Source of the DNA: Paracidobacterium acidisoli
GTDB lineage: Bacteria; Acidobacteriota; Terriglobia; Terriglobales; Acidobacteriaceae
Direction of reading: 5' to 3'
Length of the DNA: 64,000 bases
Assembly (NCBI RefSeq): GCF_003428625.2
Contig: NZ_QVQT02000006.1
Span: 310,001 to 374,000, forward strand
The notes beneath the pieces are model-generated. The model was given only the letters and a program-made list of their open reading frames with translations, was not told the DNA's origin and did not search any database. Made by a program: the position numbers and the translations under genes. The number at the start of each line of letters is the position of its first letter. The stretch's first letter is position 1. Shown here piece by piece: positions 12,353-63,490 of this stretch.

Positions 12353-12919
12353 ATGAAGCCGAATTCTGTTTTTGCCCTGTTGCTGCGCCGCCGGCGCCAT
12401 GCTGATCTCCTTTGCGGAGAGGCCGGTTACGCACGCCGTGAAGGCGGTTTTACGCTGATGGAGCTGCTGATCGTGATCTCGATCATGCTGATCCTGATGC
12501 TGATCGCCATTCCCAATATGCTCAACCTGCGCAGCCAGGCGGACGAGACTTCAGCGATTCAGTCGCTGCGCGCCGTCTACCAGGCCGAGCTGCAGTACCA
12601 GACCAATTATCCCGCCAACGGCTTCGCCTGCTCGCTGCAGACCCTCGGCGGCGATTCGTCTTCGGGCGCTCCGAGCCCGCAGAAGGCCGAGCTGCTGCAG
12701 ACCGACCTCACCGGCGGCCAGAAGTCGGGATACACCTTCAACCTGGTGAACTGCACCAAGACGACGGTCAACAACCAGGATATGTTCACCGGCTTCGAGG
12801 TCACCGCCGTGCCTCAGGCCGTCGGCAAGACGGGCCATCGCGGCTTCTGCATGGATATGGCCGGAGAGATCAAGTCGGACCCCTCGGGCGGAACCAACTG
12901 CACGGTTCCCATTCAGTAG
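12353..12919 (+). CDS. Type IV prepilin / type II pseudopilin
   Basis: About 188 residues. The class III signal sequence is EGG|FTLMELLIVISIMLILMLIAI with cleavage after Gly and Glu at mature position 5, the hallmark of pilins assembled by PilB/PilC-like machinery. The leader is unusually long and Arg-rich (about 30 residues). The globular part has two Cys pairs (FACSLQ, LVNCTK, FCMDM, NCTV). The start is uncertain: ATG 12353 has no good ribosome site, and a TTG at 12314 lies after TTTAGGA. The next gene starts at the base after its stop, so they are co-transcribed. It is probably the major pilin-like partner of the pilC-pilP cluster 4 kb downstream. Confidence 0.85.
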   Translation: MKPNSVFALLLRRRRHADLLCGEAGYARREGGFTLMELLIVISIMLILMLIAIPNMLNLRSQADETSAIQSLRAVYQAELQYQTNYPANGFACSLQTLGGDSSSGAPSPQKAELLQTDLTGGQKSGYTFNLVNCTKTTVNNQDMFTGFEVTAVPQAVGKTGHRGFCMDMAGEIKSDPSGGTNCTVPIQ

Positions 12920-13672
12920 ATGCCGGAGCTTCCACAGAGACCGGAGCCGGCCGGACATTCCTTCTTCTCCTCTGCCGTCCGCACCGCTTTCACAGCGATG
13001 CGGGCGCAGCGGAAGGCGCTGTTCGCCGCGATATTGCTGCTGACTTCGGCCTTCCCTGCGTGGAGCCAGCAGCCGGCCGCCGCAGCTCTGGCCTCGCGCG
13101 TCGATCATCATTACAACTCGCTGCACTCACTCGAAGCACACTTTACGCAGACCTATGAAGGCATGGGCATGCACCGGCGGGAGTCGGGCGTGCTGCTGCT
13201 CAAAAAGGCAGGCGCGCTGCGGCTCTCAGGCAAGATGCGGTGGACATATTCGGAGCCTGCGGGAAAGCTCTTCGTGCTGGACGGCCACGACGGCTATTTC
13301 TATGCGCCGGGCAGCGCGGAGGCGCAGCGCATCCCGGCCAAAGACCTGGACGACCTGCACTCGCCGCTGCGCTTTCTGCTGGGCCATACGGAGCTCGAAA
13401 AAGAGCTGGGCCATCTGCTGATGACGTCCGGCGAGGACGGCACGTACGTGCTCTCGGGCGTTCCCAAAGGCATGGAGCAGCGCGTCTCCTCGCTCAGCCT
13501 TACGGTGACCGCCGACGGCACGATTCAGGCGATGAAGATCGAAGAGACCGACGGCGTGCTCAACACCTTCACCTTCGCCGATGAGCATCCGAATGTTCCG
13601 GTGACAGATTCCCAGTTCCTCTTCACGCCGCCGCCCGGAGTGCACGTGGTAACCGGCATGCAGCCGATGTAG
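12920..13672 (+). CDS. LolA-like outer-membrane lipoprotein carrier protein
   Basis: 250 residues, ATG directly after the prepilin stop. A long N-terminal leader ends with a hydrophobic signal (ALFAAILLLTSAFPAWSQQ). The mature part matches the LolA half-barrel: ALASRVDHHYNSLHSLEAHFTQ, SGKMRWTYSEPAGKLFVLDG and DGYFYAPGSAEAQRI in order, then TFADEHPNVPVTDSQFLFTPP near the end. LolA carries lipoproteins across the periplasm. It may be the housekeeping LolA or a paralogue dedicated to the pilus system; a LolCDE complex is not in the window. Confidence 0.82.
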   Translation: MPELPQRPEPAGHSFFSSAVRTAFTAMRAQRKALFAAILLLTSAFPAWSQQPAAAALASRVDHHYNSLHSLEAHFTQTYEGMGMHRRESGVLLLKKAGALRLSGKMRWTYSEPAGKLFVLDGHDGYFYAPGSAEAQRIPAKDLDDLHSPLRFLLGHTELEKELGHLLMTSGEDGTYVLSGVPKGMEQRVSSLSLTVTADGTIQAMKIEETDGVLNTFTFADEHPNVPVTDSQFLFTPPPGVHVVTGMQPM

Positions 13673-13677
13673 AGAAA

Positions 13678-13705
13678 CAGGGCGCAGAGCACAGGGCGCA
13701 GGGCG
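13678..13705 (+). repeat. Heptamer repeat array (CAGNNNN), forward arm
   Basis: Four consecutive 7-bp units starting CAG: CAGGGCG, CAGAGCA, CAGGGCG, CAGGGCG. With 13791-13821 it forms a 13-bp perfect inverted repeat (13685-13697 with 13795-13807). It lies between the LolA-like and first Ycf48-like genes. Confidence 0.8.
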
Positions 13706-13790
13706 TGAATGCCTGCGCGATATTTGTGAGTTTTTGCGAATCAAAACCAAAGCAGAAGCTCCATCTCATCCAGATGACGCTTTTGATTTT

Positions 13791-13821
13791 CTGAGCCCTG
13801 TGCTCTGTGCCCTGAGTCCTG
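13791..13821 (-). repeat. Heptamer repeat array (CAGNNNN), inverted arm
   Basis: On the minus strand this reads CAGGACT, CAGGGCA, CAGAGCA, CAGGGCT, CAG: 7-bp units in the opposite orientation to 13678-13705. The arms enclose about 90 bp and could fold into a long hairpin directly before the Ycf48-like start at 13826. Confidence 0.8.
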
Positions 13822-13825
13822 TTCT

Positions 13826-14908
13826 ATGATGTTTTCCGTGAATCGACCGCTGTTTCTTCTGTCCGCAGTTCTCGCGCTCGCCTCTTTTTCCTCCGCACAA
13901 CGCTCCGCACCCGAAGCCAGACCCGCTCTCTGGACGTTCGAATCGAGCGGCACCAGCGTGAACCTGCACGCCATTCGCGCCCTCAGCGGCGGACTGGCCT
14001 GGGTCAGCGGCGCCAACGGCACCATTCTGCACACCGAGGATGACGGCAAGACGTGGCAGGCCTGCCCGGCGCCCTCCGACGGGCAGGGTCTCGACTTCCG
14101 CGCCATTCAGGCCTTCGACGGCACGACCATCCTGGCCATGTCGAGCGGCAAGGGAAATCTCTCGCGCCTTTATAAATCCGTGGACGGCTGCGCACACTGG
14201 CGTCTGCTGTACGTCAACCCGGCCAGCGGCGGCTACTGGGACGTGATGCGCTTCATCGACAACGAGTACGGATATCTGGTGGGCGATCCGGTCGGAGGCC
14301 AGTTTGTGCTGCTCGACACGAAAGACGGCGGCGAGTCATGGACGCTCGAAGCCGAGACGGAGCTGATCTCGCGCCAGGGCGTGATTCCGGCCAGCAATTC
14401 GGCTCTGGCCGCCGATCCGGACTGGGGCATTCGCTTCGGCACCAGCGGACCGGGCGAGGCCGATGTGCTGTCGACCACGCTGGCCGCTCAAACCAGAGTG
14501 CTCGGCACCTGGCGCCGCGTGCGTGTGCCCATCGCCGGAACGACTGCCTCCCAGGGCATCGCGTCGCTCGACTTTCGCGACGCCAGCCGCGGCGTTGCCG
14601 TCGGCGGCGACTTTGCGCATCCCGAAGTGCCGGCGCAGACGGCGGCCTGGACCGACGACGGCGGCCAGCACTGGACGGCGTCGAAGAATCCTCCGCACGG
14701 CTACCGCTCGGCGGTGCAGTGGAACGATGAGATCCAGGCATATATCGCGGTCGGACCGAACGGCGCCGATATCAGCTACGACGACGGGCGCAGCTGGACA
14801 TCGATCGGCAGCGATAACTGGACGGCGCTCGGGCTGCCCTGGGTGGTGGGTCCCGGCGGGCGCATTGCGAAGATCGATCTGGATCAGCTGAGGAAAAAGA
14901 AGAGGTGA
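13826..14908 (+). CDS. Secreted Ycf48-like beta-propeller protein, copy 1
   Basis: 360 residues with signal peptide (FLLSAVLALASFSSAQ). Repeated blades carry the sialidase/Ycf48-type signature: GGLAWVSGANGTILHTEDDGKTW, GGQFVLLDTKDGGESW, TAAWTDDGGQHWTA and GADISYDDGRSW, each in order. This is the BNR/Asp-box-like pattern of Ycf48/HCF136, photosystem II assembly factors in phototrophs; in non-phototrophs it marks secreted propellers of unknown role. The next gene is a paralogue. The start has no strong ribosome site, and ATG 13826 is directly followed by TTTTCCGTG, giving an alternative GTG at 13838. Confidence 0.8.
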   Translation: MMFSVNRPLFLLSAVLALASFSSAQRSAPEARPALWTFESSGTSVNLHAIRALSGGLAWVSGANGTILHTEDDGKTWQACPAPSDGQGLDFRAIQAFDGTTILAMSSGKGNLSRLYKSVDGCAHWRLLYVNPASGGYWDVMRFIDNEYGYLVGDPVGGQFVLLDTKDGGESWTLEAETELISRQGVIPASNSALAADPDWGIRFGTSGPGEADVLSTTLAAQTRVLGTWRRVRVPIAGTTASQGIASLDFRDASRGVAVGGDFAHPEVPAQTAAWTDDGGQHWTASKNPPHGYRSAVQWNDEIQAYIAVGPNGADISYDDGRSWTSIGSDNWTALGLPWVVGPGGRIAKIDLDQLRKKKR

Positions 14909-14911
14909 GGG

Positions 14912-14974
14912 CAGGGCGCAGAGTACAGGGCGCAGGGCACAGAGAACAGTGCTCAGTCTTCAGTCCACAGTGCC
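14912..14974 (+). repeat. Nine-unit heptamer repeat array (CAGNNNN), forward arm
   Basis: Nine uninterrupted 7-bp units each beginning CAG (14912, 14919, 14926, 14933, 14940, 14947, 14954, 14961, 14968). Early units are CAGGGCG-like and later ones CAGTCNN-like, so both subtypes seen elsewhere in the window meet here. CTCAGTCTTCAGT (14952-14964) is a perfect 13-bp inverted match to 15035-15047. Confidence 0.88.
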
Positions 14975-15010
14975 TGGAACCGGAGACGGGAGAGAGTACT
15001 CGAGACTGGA

Positions 15011-15055
15011 GAGCTGGGAGCTGGGGGACTGATCACTGAAGACTGAGAACTGGCA
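15011..15055 (-). repeat. Heptamer repeat array, inverted arm
   Basis: Units GAGCTGG, GAGCTGG, GGGACTG, ATCACTG, AAGACTG, AGAACTG keep a 7-bp phase and are CAGNNNN on the minus strand. The arm pairs with 14912-14974 and ends 28 bp before the second Ycf48-like start. Confidence 0.85.
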
Positions 15056-15082
15056 ACTTCTCCTTCGCGATATGCTTTTCGC

Positions 15083-16273
15083 ATGAAGTCCTGCCTTTTG
15101 CCGATCGTCTCCGCACTCGCGCTGCTCTCCGGACCATGCCTTCTCACTGCGCAGCAGGCGGCTGCTCCTGCGTCGGCGTCTCCCTGGGATGCGCAGCAAA
15201 GCTGGACCACGGCCGATCTGCGCGGGGTGGACGCGGTGGGCGGCGGAGTGGCATGGGCGAGCGGGACGAACGGCACCGTGCTGCGGACGGAGGATGCCGG
15301 GTACATGTGGCAGGCCTGCGCCGTGCCTCCCGGCGCAGAGAAGCTGGACTTCCGCGGGATCAAAGCGTGGGACGGGAACACGGCGGTCGTGATGTCGAGC
15401 GGCCCCGGCGGCCAGTCGCGGCTCTATAAGACGACCGATGGCTGCTCGCACTGGACGCTGCTCTTTACGAATCCGGAAAAAGACGGGTTTTACGACGCGC
15501 TGCTGTTCGTCGATCGGGAGCATGGGATCGTGCTTGGCGACCCGGCGCATGGGAGCCCGGGGATCAATCCGGTCGAAGGCGGCTATTTCACCTTCCGGAT
15601 TCGGGTGACGGCGGACGGAGGCAAAATCTGGGCTCCGGTGGTCGATCCCGAGTCCGGAGAGCCGGGAAAGAACCTGCAGCCGCTGGATAAGGAAGCCTTT
15701 TTCGCCGCCAGCAACAGCTCGATGGCTGCGCAGGATGGATGGCTGTGGCTCGGCACCAGCCATGACCGGGTGCTGCGCCGGAAGTACGAGCCATGGATTG
15801 TGCCCGCCGGGCTCTGCGGCGGCGCGATCGATCCGTTTTCTCACTCCTGCGGCATTCCCTGGACGGACTGGCAGAGCGCGGAGGTGCCGCTGGCGAGCGG
15901 GAATGCGACCTCCGGCCTCTTTTCTATTGCCTTTCGCGACGCGCAGCACGGCATAGCGGCAGGCGGCGACTACCAGAAGCCGGATGAAACGGCCGGAACC
16001 GCCGCCTGGACCGCCGACGGCGGCGCGCACTGGACGGCCGCAGTCAAACCTCCGCACGGTTACCGCTCGTCGGTCGCCTGGGATGCGGAGGCCAGAGCCT
16101 GGATCGCGGCGGGACCGAACGGCTCAGATATCAGCCATGACGACGGCAGGACCTGGCAGCCGCTCGACTCGACTCCGGAGGGGGGCGGCTGGAATGCGAT
16201 CAGCCTGCCGTGGATCGTCGGACCGCATGGCCGCATCGCCCGCCTCGACCCGGAGACGCTGAAGCACCCGTAA
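15083..16273 (+). CDS. Secreted Ycf48-like beta-propeller protein, copy 2
   Basis: 396 residues, paralogue of the gene just upstream: same blade order with WASGTNGTVLRTEDAGYMWQAC, GGQSRLYKTTDGCSHWTLLFTN, AAWTADGGAHWTA and GSDISHDDGRTW in turn. A signal peptide (LALLSGPCLLTAQQ) precedes. It is about 36 residues longer, with an insert near residues 150-175 (HGSPGINPVEGGYFTF). Two extra Cys (GLCGGAIDPFSHSCG) could form a disulfide loop absent from copy 1. Tandem duplication followed by divergence is the simplest reading. Role unknown; a link with the adjacent pilus genes is only positional. Confidence 0.8.
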   Translation: MKSCLLPIVSALALLSGPCLLTAQQAAAPASASPWDAQQSWTTADLRGVDAVGGGVAWASGTNGTVLRTEDAGYMWQACAVPPGAEKLDFRGIKAWDGNTAVVMSSGPGGQSRLYKTTDGCSHWTLLFTNPEKDGFYDALLFVDREHGIVLGDPAHGSPGINPVEGGYFTFRIRVTADGGKIWAPVVDPESGEPGKNLQPLDKEAFFAASNSSMAAQDGWLWLGTSHDRVLRRKYEPWIVPAGLCGGAIDPFSHSCGIPWTDWQSAEVPLASGNATSGLFSIAFRDAQHGIAAGGDYQKPDETAGTAAWTADGGAHWTAAVKPPHGYRSSVAWDAEARAWIAAGPNGSDISHDDGRTWQPLDSTPEGGGWNAISLPWIVGPHGRIARLDPETLKHP

Positions 16274-16586
16274 GCTCTCCGGCCGCGAAAGCCTTTCGCC
16301 CGGCAGAGGCTGAAAGGCTTCGTCCGGAGTAGACCGGGATCGTTCAGGCAGCGGGAGCTGGCTCGGCATGGCGGGCGCATCTCCTGCAGATGCATCACTT
16401 CGGGACAGCCTTCCCCAATCGGTACTTCCCTCTTTCCGGCCCGAGCGAATTCCCCTCCCCCTGCGTCCTGTACATGGCGCGAACTGGTACCCTTGAAAAA
16501 GGGACGCATTTCTTTGCCGGAGCCGGATTTCCGGCCGGCGGGTTTGTTCGGGCTCCCGGCGAGCATGTCCGGCGGGGTGAAGGATC
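16274..16586. other. 313-bp intergenic region before pilC/gspF
   Basis: The left 55 bp hold a terminator-like hairpin (16277-16329). The rest (16330-16586) has no recognised gene; short open frames here have no ribosome sites and no familiar motifs. The promoter of the pilC-to-pilin run is probably within it but I could not assign boxes. Confidence 0.4.
16277..16329 (+). terminator. Two-part hairpin after Ycf48-like copy 2
   Basis: Inner stem AAGCCTTTC / GAAAGGCTT (16289-16297 and 16312-16320) within an outer stem CTCCGG / CCGGAG (16277-16282 and 16324-16329). Starts 4 bp after the stop codon. No U-tract, so strength is unsure. Confidence 0.5.
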
Positions 16587-17783
16587 ATGGCGGAATTTGT
16601 CATCAGGCTGGCGGATGAGCGGGGCCACGTGCGGGAGCAGGTACAGTCCGCCTCCTCGGCCGAGGAGGTGCGCCAGCGCTTCTCCCAGGCCGGTTACCAT
16701 GTCTACTCCGTCAAGCCGCGCGGCCTGACCGGCGGCAGCCGCAAGACGAAGCTCGAGACCTTCCTCATCTTCAACCAGCAGTTTCTGACCCTCGTCCGCG
16801 CCGGCCTGCCCATTCTGGGCTCGCTCGAAATGCTGGCGAAGAGCCAGAAGAACCCCGGCTTTGCCGGCCAGCTGCAGAATGTCGCCGCCCGCGTCCGCAC
16901 CGGCGAGTCGATCTCTTCGGCCTTCGACGCCCAGGGCGGATTTCCGCTGATGTACACCACCACGCTGCTGGCCGGGGAGCGCAGCGGCAACCTCGAAGAG
17001 GTGCTGGGCCGCTATCTGGCCTTTCAGCGCATGACGCTGACCTTCCGCAAGAAGCTGACCGCGTCGCTGATCTATCCGGCGCTGCTGATCACCCTGGTCT
17101 TCGGGCTCTTCATCTTTCTGATCACCTTCGTGGTGCCGCAGTTCGCCAAGCTCTACGACCAGGTCGACGCCAAGCTGCCTTCGATCACGCTGGCGCTGCT
17201 GGCGCTCGGCAAAGGCACGCAGCATTACATCGTTTACATCATTCCGGCGCTGGCCCTTGTGATCTACGGCATCTGGCGCTGGAGCCATACGGAGTCCGGG
17301 GCCGACCGCATCGACGGCGTGCGCATCAGCCTGCCGGTGCTGGGCAAAATCTGGCTGAAGTATCAGGTGGCGCTCTTTGCGCGCACGCTCTCGACGCTGC
17401 TGACCGGCGGTATTCCGCTGGTGCCGTCGCTCGAGACGGCGGCGCGCTCGATCGCCAGCAAGCGCATCAGCAAGGCCGTCTTCGGAGCGGTGACCAGCGT
17501 GCGCGAAGGCAAGGGGCTGGCGAAGAGCCTCGAATCGACGAAGGTCTTCCCCGAGCTTTCCGTCGAGATGATCGAGGTGGGCGAGTCGACCGGAGCGCTG
17601 CCGCAGATGCTTAACTCCGTCGCCGAGTTCTTCGAGGAGGATGTACAGACGGCCCTGAGCGCGGCGATGGCCCTGATCGAGCCGGCCATTCTGATCGTGA
17701 TGGGCGTGGTCGTCGTCATTATTCTTATCGCTCTCTATCTGCCCATCGTTTCGCTGGCCAACGCCAGCAGCCTGGGGAGATAG
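16587..17783 (+). CDS. Type IV pilus / type II secretion inner-membrane platform protein (PilC/GspF)
   Basis: 398 residues, standard for PilC/GspF. Two GspF domains are visible: FLIFNQQFLTLVRAGLPILGSLEML with GYLA-like GRYLAFQR, and after the central helices VALFARTLSTLLTGGIPLVPSLE with MIEVGESTGALPQML. Hydrophobic segments lie at about 160-190, 215-235 and 370-395. The protein forms the inner-membrane platform coupling the ATPase to pilin extrusion. ATG at 16587 with GGTGAAGG upstream. It heads a seven-gene same-strand run. Confidence 0.93.
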   Translation: MAEFVIRLADERGHVREQVQSASSAEEVRQRFSQAGYHVYSVKPRGLTGGSRKTKLETFLIFNQQFLTLVRAGLPILGSLEMLAKSQKNPGFAGQLQNVAARVRTGESISSAFDAQGGFPLMYTTTLLAGERSGNLEEVLGRYLAFQRMTLTFRKKLTASLIYPALLITLVFGLFIFLITFVVPQFAKLYDQVDAKLPSITLALLALGKGTQHYIVYIIPALALVIYGIWRWSHTESGADRIDGVRISLPVLGKIWLKYQVALFARTLSTLLTGGIPLVPSLETAARSIASKRISKAVFGAVTSVREGKGLAKSLESTKVFPELSVEMIEVGESTGALPQMLNSVAEFFEEDVQTALSAAMALIEPAILIVMGVVVVIILIALYLPIVSLANASSLGR

Positions 17784-33761: not shown

Positions 33762-33782
33762 CAGGGCTCAGGGCTCAGGGCT
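33762..33782 (+). repeat. Three identical heptamers upstream of folD
   Basis: CAGGGCT repeated exactly three times (33762, 33769, 33776). Same 7-bp period and CAGNNNN pattern as arrays at 13.7, 14.9, 47.2 and 60.1 kb. No inverted arm was seen here. Confidence 0.75.
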
Positions 33783-47210: not shown

Positions 47211-47293
47211 CAGTAATCAGTCCCCGGTTAACAGTCCCCAGTTGTCAGTTCCATTCAGCTTCTGCGGTTCACCGGGGACTGGCAACTGATTAC
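47211..47293. repeat. Heptamer repeat arms between atpD and atpC
   Basis: Six 7-bp units from 47211: CAGTAAT, CAGTCCC, CGGTTAA, CAGTCCC, CAGTTGT, CAGTTCC. The inverted arm is 47271-47293. Perfect pairs are AGTCCCCGGT (47219-47228) with ACCGGGGACT (47271-47280) and GTAATCAGT (47213-47221) with ACTGATTAC (47285-47293). A long stem here could affect the amount of epsilon made. Confidence 0.85.
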
Positions 47294-62025: not shown

Positions 62026-63208
62026 GGTCCAGAGCCACGCGCGCCCAGTGCTTCACGTCGTCCCGCACCTGAATGCGGTTCACCACATGACCCTCCACCA
62101 GGTTTTCGAGCGCCCATGCCAGATGCTGCGGGCTGATGCGGTACATCGTCGTGCACAGGCAGCCGGTGTCGTCGAGGGTGATGATCTTTTTGCCCTTCGG
62201 CGCAAACTCCCTCGCCAGCCGGTTGACCAGGTGAATCTCGGTTCCGATGGCGAAGCTCGACCCCTCGGGCGCGTCGGCGACGAGCCGGATCAGCCGTTCC
62301 GTCGAGCCCATCGCGTCGGCCTTCCGGCAGACCTCCCAGCGGCACTCCGGATGCACGATCACCTGCATCTCCGGATACTTCGCGCGCACCTTGTCCACGT
62401 GCTCCGGCAGAAAGCGCTGATGCACCGAGCAGTGGCCCTTCCACAGAATGACCTTTGCCGCCCTCAGACGCTCCGGCGAAACGCCGCCGCCGATCTGCCA
62501 GGGATCGTAGACCACCATCTCCTGCATCGGGATGCCCATCGCCCAGCCGGTGTTGCGGCCGAGGTGCTGGTCGGGCAGAAAGAGGATCTTTTCCGCGCGC
62601 GCAAAGGCCCACTCGAAGGCCGTGCGCGCATTCGACGAGGTGCAGACCAGTCCGCCGCGCTCGCCGCAGAATGCCTTGATGGCCGCCGTGGAGTTCATGT
62701 AGGTCAGCGGCAGCAGCTCGCTTTCCTTGAGGCCGGCTCCGAGCAGCGTCTCCCAGCAGTCTTCCACCTGGCCGATCTCGGCCATATCGGCCATCGAGCA
62801 GCCCGCATTCAGGTCGGGCAGAATCACACGCTGCCCCGGCCTTTCCGCCGTGTCGGGACGCCCCAGCACATCGGCGCTCTCGGCCATGAAGTGCACGCCG
62901 CAAAAGAGAATGTAGTCGGCCTCGCTGGCCGCTGCCGCCTGGGAGAGCTTGTAAGAGTCGCCGGTGAAGTCCGCAAAGCGAATCACTTCATCGCGCTGGT
63001 AGTGATGGCCCAGCAATACGGTGCTCGCGCCCAGCTTTTCGCGGGCGGCCGCAATGCGGTCATCCATCGTGTGGTCGGGGAGGACCAGATAATTCTCCAG
63101 AGAACACGTCTCTGCCTGTGGGACAACTTCCTCAAGTACGTTCAATGTATGCTCCGCCTTCAGCCCAACGGGAAGACCGTTCTCGATGGACGGGGATGTT
63201 GAAAGCAA
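62003..63208 (-). CDS. nadA: Quinolinate synthase NadA
   Basis: 401 residues. Three Cys that hold the [4Fe-4S] cluster lie in LFCGVHFMAESA, HPECRWEVC and DTGCLCTTM. Also LGHHYQRDEV, NSTAAIKAFC and HLGRNTG. NadA makes quinolinate from iminoaspartate and dihydroxyacetone phosphate for NAD. The frame starts at TTG 63208; the first 40 residues vary in the family, so the start is unsure. nadB and nadC are not adjacent. Confidence 0.95.
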   Translation of the reverse strand: MLSTSPSIENGLPVGLKAEHTLNVLEEVVPQAETCSLENYLVLPDHTMDDRIAAAREKLGASTVLLGHHYQRDEVIRFADFTGDSYKLSQAAAASEADYILFCGVHFMAESADVLGRPDTAERPGQRVILPDLNAGCSMADMAEIGQVEDCWETLLGAGLKESELLPLTYMNSTAAIKAFCGERGGLVCTSSNARTAFEWAFARAEKILFLPDQHLGRNTGWAMGIPMQEMVVYDPWQIGGGVSPERLRAAKVILWKGHCSVHQRFLPEHVDKVRAKYPEMQVIVHPECRWEVCRKADAMGSTERLIRLVADAPEGSSFAIGTEIHLVNRLAREFAPKGKKIITLDDTGCLCTTMYRISPQHLAWALENLVEGHVVNRIQVRDDVKHWARVALDRMLEIPA

Positions 63209-63490
63209 TTCCGGCTGCAGTCGGCTCGCTGTGGCTTATGCCACCCAGTCGACGGGGATGTTGCAACCACACCTTTTAGACGCGCCTCGTGAAAATCCGT
63301 TGCAAATTCGGTGAATCTCACCGGGCGGGCCCATCTGTTTCTGTAACTCATATCGTACACAAAACGGCGGCCGCACAACAGAGTTCCCCCGTGGCTGCCG
63401 TGAGGTTCAACTCTATCGATTTCCGGGCTTTGCCGGCGCCGGGAGCCCCTCATTTGTGGCCCCCGATGCTGGCGGGTATCATGGTCTTTC

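Follow-up and report, generated by a model that had tools for sequence, protein, structure and literature searches.

Intergenic elements in Paracidobacterium acidisoli consist of two inverted arms of about four loose heptads each, and their first unit usually lies 2-6 nt past a stop codon. The preliminary description gave the unit as CAG followed by four free bases. This holds in the window, the 64,000-nt stretch analyzed here, and fails as a rule: CAG is one dialect among several, and what recurs is the period of seven, the inversion and the start just past the stop. Spacing and position seem to weigh more than letters. We put the chances at about even that the arrays are REP-like hairpin elements of gene ends.

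Two heptad elements flank the first Ycf48-like gene

Two such elements, A and B, are found in the window on either side of the first of two Ycf48-like genes. The features are listed in order of position.

12920-13672, forward strand: LolA-like gene (Pfam LolA PF03548, E 2.9e-13), stop codon at 13670-13672
13678-13705, forward strand: left arm of element A, 4 heptads, CAGGGCG CAGAGCA CAGGGCG CAGGGCG
13706-13786, forward strand: loop of element A, with homology to that of locus L067 and, via L067, to that of L056
13756-13782, forward strand: inner hairpin of element A, AAGCTCCATCT-CATCC-AGATGACGCTT, from alignment and fold
13787-13821, reverse strand: right (inverted) arm of element A, 5 heptads
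13826-14908, forward strand: first Ycf48-like gene (Pfam PSII_BNR PF14870, E 1.6e-9, above cut-off); the start at 13826 is ORF-based and putative, and the gene caller begins the gene at 13958
14912-14974, forward strand: left arm of element B, 9 heptads
15025-15052, reverse strand: right (inverted) arm of element B, 4 CAGTNNN heptads
15083-16273, forward strand: second Ycf48-like gene, a weak match to PF14870 (E 5.2e-6, 26.4 bits against a cut-off of 27)

The second Ycf48-like gene also matched Sortilin-Vps10, more strongly than PF14870 and likewise below threshold.

CAG runs in strict 7-bp phase were present in both gaps, at 13678-13701 (+, 4 units), 13791-13821 (-, 5), 14912-14970 (+, 9, the last unit reaching 14974) and 15029-15052 (-, 4). 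All four are non-coding and lie between the LolA-like, first and second Ycf48-like genes. The window gave 18 three-unit CAG matches, against a mean of 0.85 and a maximum of 4 in 100 dinucleotide-preserving shuffles. Element A begins with a CAG 5 nt past the LolA-like stop, and its right arm stops 4 nt short of the next ATG (13826). In element B the first CAG lies 3 nt past the stop of the first Ycf48-like gene (14908). Its nine units do stand in a row, though as two fused dialects, GGCG-like in units 1-5 and CAGTNNN in units 6-9, and the right arm pairs with the CAGTNNN half only. The arms of element A (13678-13701/13791-13814) are 92% complementary over 24 nt, those of element B (14947-14974/15025-15052) 82% over 28 nt, and the 13-bp perfect pairings at 13685/13795 and 14952/15035 are present in the letters. 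Phase, inverted partners, the nine-unit run and the non-coding location had all been claimed in the preliminary description and were borne out. The folding that it proposed was carried out as well. As RNA, positions 13675-13824 folded at -71.9 kcal/mol, compared with -44.5 (SD 4.2) for shuffles (z -6.6), and positions 14910-15055 at -56.1 kcal/mol, compared with -46.2 (SD 3.3; z -3.0). The inner hairpin of element A is a degenerate counterpart of terminator-like hairpins in the sister copies L057, L067 and L221.

No Rfam match in 13600-15120 reached its gathering score. The sole matches, MIR529 (26 bits, gathering 75) and HOTTIP_3 (12.8 bits, gathering 50), were rejected as identities. Searched against plasmids for similarity, element A gave no match. 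Elsewhere in the window, further three-unit intergenic CAG runs at 33762-33778 and 47232-47248 do not lie in sense orientation behind a stop, and a tandem pair of nadA riboswitch (RF03013) matches above gathering score (63 and 42.7 bits) was found at 63156-63268 on the reverse strand.

Heptad arrays in the genome and the phylum

Counts in this section are overlapping pattern matches, not loci. The four-unit pattern matched 73 + 86 times in the 5.0-Mb P. acidisoli genome (G000) and the reversed pattern 2 + 11 times, so that 159 matches stand against 13. Other copies therefore exist in the genome, and an equal frequency in shuffled DNA, which the preliminary description had named as telling against it, did not occur. 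The five-unit 7-bp pattern matched 45 + 50 times in G000; at an 8-bp period the same genome gave no match. Among 21 genomes, P. acidisoli and 20 relatives, the five-unit pattern occurred in 16 at 7 bp and in 4 at 8 bp, the latter mostly in G013 with units that alternate by eye. At G013 C1:513932-513998, for example, period-8 CAG arrays alternate CAGTATTT and CAGTAGAT, a higher-order unit of 16 bp.

In a sample of the phylum, 167 of 396 genomes had at least one five-unit match. Presence varied even within one genus, where 11 of the 21 sampled genomes had none and another had 50. One P. acidisoli region, C11:1-400000 (loci L090-L109), was almost array-free; its 10 four-unit period-7 matches are about the level of neighboring periods. 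Its G+C content is 0.588, compared with 0.631 in the window, and it may be another replicon or an acquired region.

Period 7 is shared by many dialects

A motif-free search for any fixed trinucleotide in four units was applied to 400 kb of contig 23 of the relative G006, which was unselected. It returned 81 arrays of period 7, of which 74 were intergenic. Periods 5, 6, 8, 9, 10, 11 and 13 gave 2, 18, 12, 15, 4, 8 and 4 arrays, respectively. In single-match counts, period 7 reached 337, period 12 reached 39 and period 14 reached 60. Sorted by eye, the G006 units fall into the families CAGTGGT, CAGCTNT, CAGTTCT, GTCGTTG, AGCTNNT and TAGGGNT. Many of the arrays are paired in inverted orientation across a short loop, and GTCGTTG and AGCTNNT show the same geometry as the CAG type. 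The reversed control pattern was itself abundant in some genomes, among them G030 (210 + 190 matches), which has no CAG match and carries the units GACCATR, CARGATR, GGCGARK and GGAATGR. CAG is therefore seen as one dialect.

Some strong stop-side hairpins of G006 repeat at 8 bp or lack a clear period. Locus L120 (5723-5824, G006) holds an inverted repeat of 38 nt, of the CTGTCATCCCGAGCGAAGCGAGGGATCT type, that has no heptads and starts 5 nt past a stop, so stop anchoring is common to a non-heptad palindrome as well.

Arrays begin just past stop codons

Gene positions are those of our own gene caller, not of an annotation, and its starts are imprecise. Apart from the window and C11:1-400000, the P. 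acidisoli stretches were chosen for holding arrays, and densities are accordingly given for the unselected G006. Over all the P. acidisoli stretches analyzed, 73 of 83 runs with at least three CAG were intergenic, as were 57 of 61 with at least four; the remaining 4 of the 61 lie inside called genes and are either caller errors or real. Of the 64 intergenic runs of at least four units, 42 follow a stop in sense orientation, 21 are located at the start side of their nearest gene and 1 has no gene on that side. Thirty-five of the 42 began 0-12 nt past the stop, mostly at 2-5 nt. Uniform placement in those gaps would give 4.8, and the maximum in 5000 simulations was 12. G006 gave the same picture, with 45% of 60 stop-flanked arrays at most 10 nt from the stop, compared with 7.8% for random placement. 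Arrays are depleted from divergent gaps: in G006 these hold 6 arrays over 40.6 kb, compared with 45 over 70.4 kb for tandem gaps and 15 over 19.7 kb for convergent ones. The special link to Ycf48-like genes that the first description had suggested did not hold, as arrays occur behind unrelated genes too.

Some arrays (L033, L064, L066) consist of a left arm alone, and the hairpin is therefore not obligatory. Nor did a wobble test give evidence that selection maintains pairing in the RNA: in the tandem gaps of two genomes, sense-strand G-U stood to A-C mismatches at 55 to 43, which is not significant and counts against an RNA hairpin function.

Arm anatomy and the microsatellite alternative

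The commonest run has five YAG starts, namely four units and a loop-proximal unit. The latter ends in AAA in 27% of 75 runs in P. acidisoli and 29% of 62 runs in G006, while the other tabulated unit positions do so in 0-2%. Arms of the same locus resemble each other. Identity at the free positions was 0.565 between same-locus arms and 0.44 between arms of different loci in P. acidisoli (21 pairs), and 0.665 and 0.461 in G006 (22 pairs); some of these pairs have an arm in common (L044, L068, L075, L110). None of 1000 permutations in either genome reached the observed value. Between arms of one dialect, unit order was not conserved: 32, 487 and 44 of 500 unit-order shuffles reached the observed value in three dialects, and fixed-arm copying was rejected.

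These data bear on the simplest alternative, that the arrays are plain heptanucleotide microsatellites, STRR-like, which slip into being anywhere and survive only where coding is unharmed. Period 7 is indeed over-represented in non-coding DNA, and pure long arrays do exist: CAGGTCG x11 and CAGGGCA x12 in P. acidisoli, and about 35 CAGTTGC units in a row in G258 (C1:1577573-1577813). The latter is one of several pure long arrays there and a candidate variable-number locus. Most arrays are of another kind. No three identical units stand in a row in 64 of 75 arrays in P. acidisoli and 55 of 62 in G006; 11 and 7 arrays have them. Over all arrays, units two apart were more alike than in shuffled order (0 of 2000 shuffles in P. 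acidisoli, p 0.004 in G006). Over all arrays of G006, identical units stood side by side less frequently than in shuffled order (p 0.001). In P. acidisoli the corresponding value was p 0.33 for all arrays and 0.026 or 0.064, depending on the cut, once arrays dominated by one unit were left out. Neighbors are thus no more often identical than in shuffled order, and the arrays are not the residue of simple unit-by-unit slippage, even though pure arrays exist. Nor do microsatellites predict an array start a few nucleotides past a stop, an inverted partner of the same dialect, or a module length with an AAA cap. Stop anchoring, the shared dialect of the arms and the unit statistics strain this reading, and we regard it as fairly unlikely.

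Gain and spread of the elements

We compared 30 LolA loci, P. acidisoli included; many of the others have a different next gene, and L190 and L192 were left out. The gap between LolA and Ycf48 measures 153 nt in P. acidisoli; in G433, G437 and G414 it is array-free and 44, 48 and 35 nt long, respectively. At these array-free loci (L185, L187, L196) the next gene was judged Ycf48-like by eye from its first residues, and L186 and L189 are candidate further cases whose starts are unclear. Elsewhere the same position is occupied differently. G003 (L202) carries CAGGAAG CAGGAGG CAGGAGG five nt past the LolA stop, and G441 (L188) has AGCTCTG-type heptads at its LolA locus. Past the LolA-like gene of G055 (L191) a long inverted repeat of the GTCATCCTGAGCG...CGCTCAGGATGAC type was seen at the place where the window has heptads.

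A second junction, NuoD-NuoI, was compared at 10 loci. P. acidisoli has CAGGGCT x4 two nt past the stop, G008 an AGCTTCT-type hairpin of another dialect, and G441 two CTGGCAA units ahead of the start. The gap is array-free in G410 (23 nt), G438 (25 nt) and G055 (about 0 nt), and by eye the remaining four loci have no run of three CAG. Because the same gaps carry differing dialects or none, it seems that one gap can gain heptad elements independently and in different dialects. In principle, the relatives without arrays could have lost them.

The loops carry a further signal. The window element is 72-75% identical to L067 through the loop, and L067 is 74% identical to L056. The loops of the window element and L056 align in MAFFT; BLAST joined only an arm. 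A covariance model built from five copies found seven places in P. acidisoli at E < 1e-9, which are the five used plus L049 and L221. L221 is a new copy outside the loci chosen for arrays. Fourteen weaker rows were obtained in the same genome, some of which are these places read on the opposite strand. Among 20 relatives, the model gave weak matches in two (2e-4 and 0.009) and none in 18. In G006, leaving duplicate stretches aside, only one small group of gaps (L078, L113, L117) is alike over 21-38 bp outside the heptads; L079/L080 overlap L112/L113, so that their mutual matches are not independent. Whole-element copying is demonstrated for the window element only.

Miniature mobile elements of the MITE or REPIN type, transposing as arm-loop-arm units, would account for these loop identities, for the two additional copies found by the model and for the short array-free gaps of the three relatives. 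The few loops alike in G006 (short loops limit the power of this comparison) and the unit order that is not conserved between arms argue against them. The distribution of transposase genes bears on the same question. The Y1 transposase family PF01797 was found in 17 of 21 genomes and gave no match in G000 (an assembly 97.4% complete), G013, G019 and G020. The four genomes richest in five-unit matches are G019 (109), G000 (95), G006 (70) and G013 (59). Three of these are array-rich without Y1, and a RAYT-driven REP model was therefore rejected as a necessary cause. G006 has 8 Y1 matches, which is in favor of mobility there; since it is array-rich as well, the transposase is dispensable rather than anticorrelated. 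The missing Y1 match in P. acidisoli is a further point against mobile elements, which we consider an unlikely explanation.

Terminator-like hairpins and start-side signals

The arms might instead be parts of bidirectional intrinsic terminators, lengthening a terminator hairpin outward. GC hairpins with a T-run stand beside or between the arms in L057, L063, L065, L067 and L221, in the loop itself in the sister copies L057, L067 and L221, and behind the left arm in L231. In convergent gaps, terminator-like hairpins were present in 6 of 15 with arrays, and the 5 of 20 without arrays are not clearly fewer. Tandem gaps speak against the idea, with 0 of 20 array gaps and 10 of 115 array-free gaps; for divergent gaps the counts were 0 of 3 and 4 of 33. 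Positions 12900-16600 of the window have 2 terminator-like sites, one of them at 13703-13718 in the first gap, compared with 2.2 in shuffles. Taken as an account of the arrays, a terminator role is quite unlikely.

Another reading places the signal in the letters or at the downstream start, as sites of a heptad-reading protein or as translational control of the kind suggested for the TAACTGA heptamers of marine Beggiatoaceae. Most sets of the TAACTGA heptamers, 147 of 170, point at a start (MacGregor 2015, PMC4679880). They share with the present arrays a CTG in the sense orientation of the right arms, a place ahead of starts, an intergenic location and a sporadic occurrence over phyla. They differ in having one nearly fixed unit, start anchoring and one inverted case, whereas the arrays here are stop-anchored and paired (PMC4679880). 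Right arms do come close to starts: of 19 strong stop-side hairpins of G006 whose next gene has the same direction, 6 have a right arm that ends 0-12 nt short of the called start, and in the window this distance is 4 nt. Over all arrays of G006 there was no enrichment at called starts (11.8% compared with 11.0% for random placement, with imprecise starts). The many dialects within one genome argue against a single sequence-reading protein. We judge both variants of this reading to be improbable.

Relation to known repeats

No description of such heptads in Acidobacteria was found in a literature search whose coverage excluded most subscription papers, in keeping with the preliminary description, which knew of none. 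The STRR heptamers of cyanobacteria are tandem units of seven bases, and a tandem 7-bp period is found here as well. They are not known for inverted pairing or for stop anchoring. Most of the present arrays do not consist of perfect or near-perfect copies of the STRR/SSR type. The initial comparison with STRR thus stands for the unit length; the GGGAATC heptamers of Xanthomonas are the closer match because they have inverted pairing and stop-proximal placement in common with our elements (PMC4692102).

The GGGAATC heptamers of Xanthomonas and GGGGA(C/T)T of Nostoc are discussed as quadruplexes (Rehm et al. 2015, PMC4692102). Convergent inverted pairs number 70 and 75 in two Xanthomonas and are few in Nostoc. 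The heptamers lie mostly less than 50 bp from a stop on the coding strand, with few between divergent genes, prefer a size of four units and are described there as generally having no link to mobile elements (PMC4692102). The likeness to our elements extends to period 7, the intergenic location, about four units, inverted pairs and the stop-side position on the coding strand (PMC4692102). What differs is that many degenerate dialects occur here, several without G-runs, that the anchoring is resolved to a few nucleotides and that relatives are compared. That G-quadruplexes underlie the elements, as proposed for the Xanthomonas and Nostoc repeats, agrees with the published geometry (PMC4692102) and with the GGG in the GGCG-like main dialect of P. 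acidisoli, and it could still hold for G-rich dialects; by inspection, however, CAGCTNT, GTCGTTG, AGCTNNT and CAGTNNN lack the needed G-runs, the first three in the same geometry, so that we reject it as the common cause and give it hardly any credence.

The REP, BIME and REPIN repeats offer the other comparison. They too are numerous intergenic hairpin repeats, partly near stops (PMC12306157, PMC3733652). Hairpin repeats within about 15 nt of a stop are what we find, with 35 of 42 runs at 0-12 nt. E. coli REPs less than 16 nt from a stop reportedly lower translation by ribosome stalling (PMC12306157, citing others). The parallel is partial, because in the wider RepRanger set of E. coli REPs only 446 of 4,072 (about 11%) are that close, at 15 nt or less from a stop (PMC12306157). 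Two further differences are that the arms here are built of heptads whose order is exchangeable and that the genome has no RAYT-family match. The new part is the geometry rule, stop-anchored and inverted with interchangeable letters, on a known type of heptamer repeat.

Discussion

The readings weighed above are not mutually exclusive, and the probabilities we attach to them need not sum to one. If the arrays are REP-like hairpin elements of gene ends, which we hold about as probable as its opposite, the arms in a read-through transcript would fold into a long stem directly past the stop codon. Such a stem may act as a 3' boundary, as stop-proximal REPs of E. coli reportedly do through stalling of the terminating ribosome and effects on decay and expression. 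The elements would persist where the stem is tolerated or mildly useful. We would guess that they spread by the copying of heptads, through slippage or conversion between arrays, and occasionally as a whole element, and not by RAYT. Both hairpin formation in the RNA and effects on expression are predicted here from letters and position. The fast turnover within one genus (11 of 21 genomes without arrays, 50 matches in another) fits a tolerated as well as a useful element.

Heptamers of several phyla have so far been discussed singly, as quadruplexes in Xanthomonas and Nostoc and as translational control in Beggiatoaceae. That the same stop-anchored, inverted layout recurs while its letters are interchangeable suggests a common cause beyond those explanations. 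We raise as a tentative and somewhat doubtful proposal that in many bacteria one process writes paired heptad modules past stops, leaving the letters free and fixing period, inversion, module length and distance to the stop. Each genome would have dialects of its own, and the heptamers of Xanthomonas, Nostoc and Beggiatoa would then be further ones. If this is true, either the geometry is functional at translation termination or 3'-end formation and the sequence irrelevant, or a heptad-copying activity is at work.
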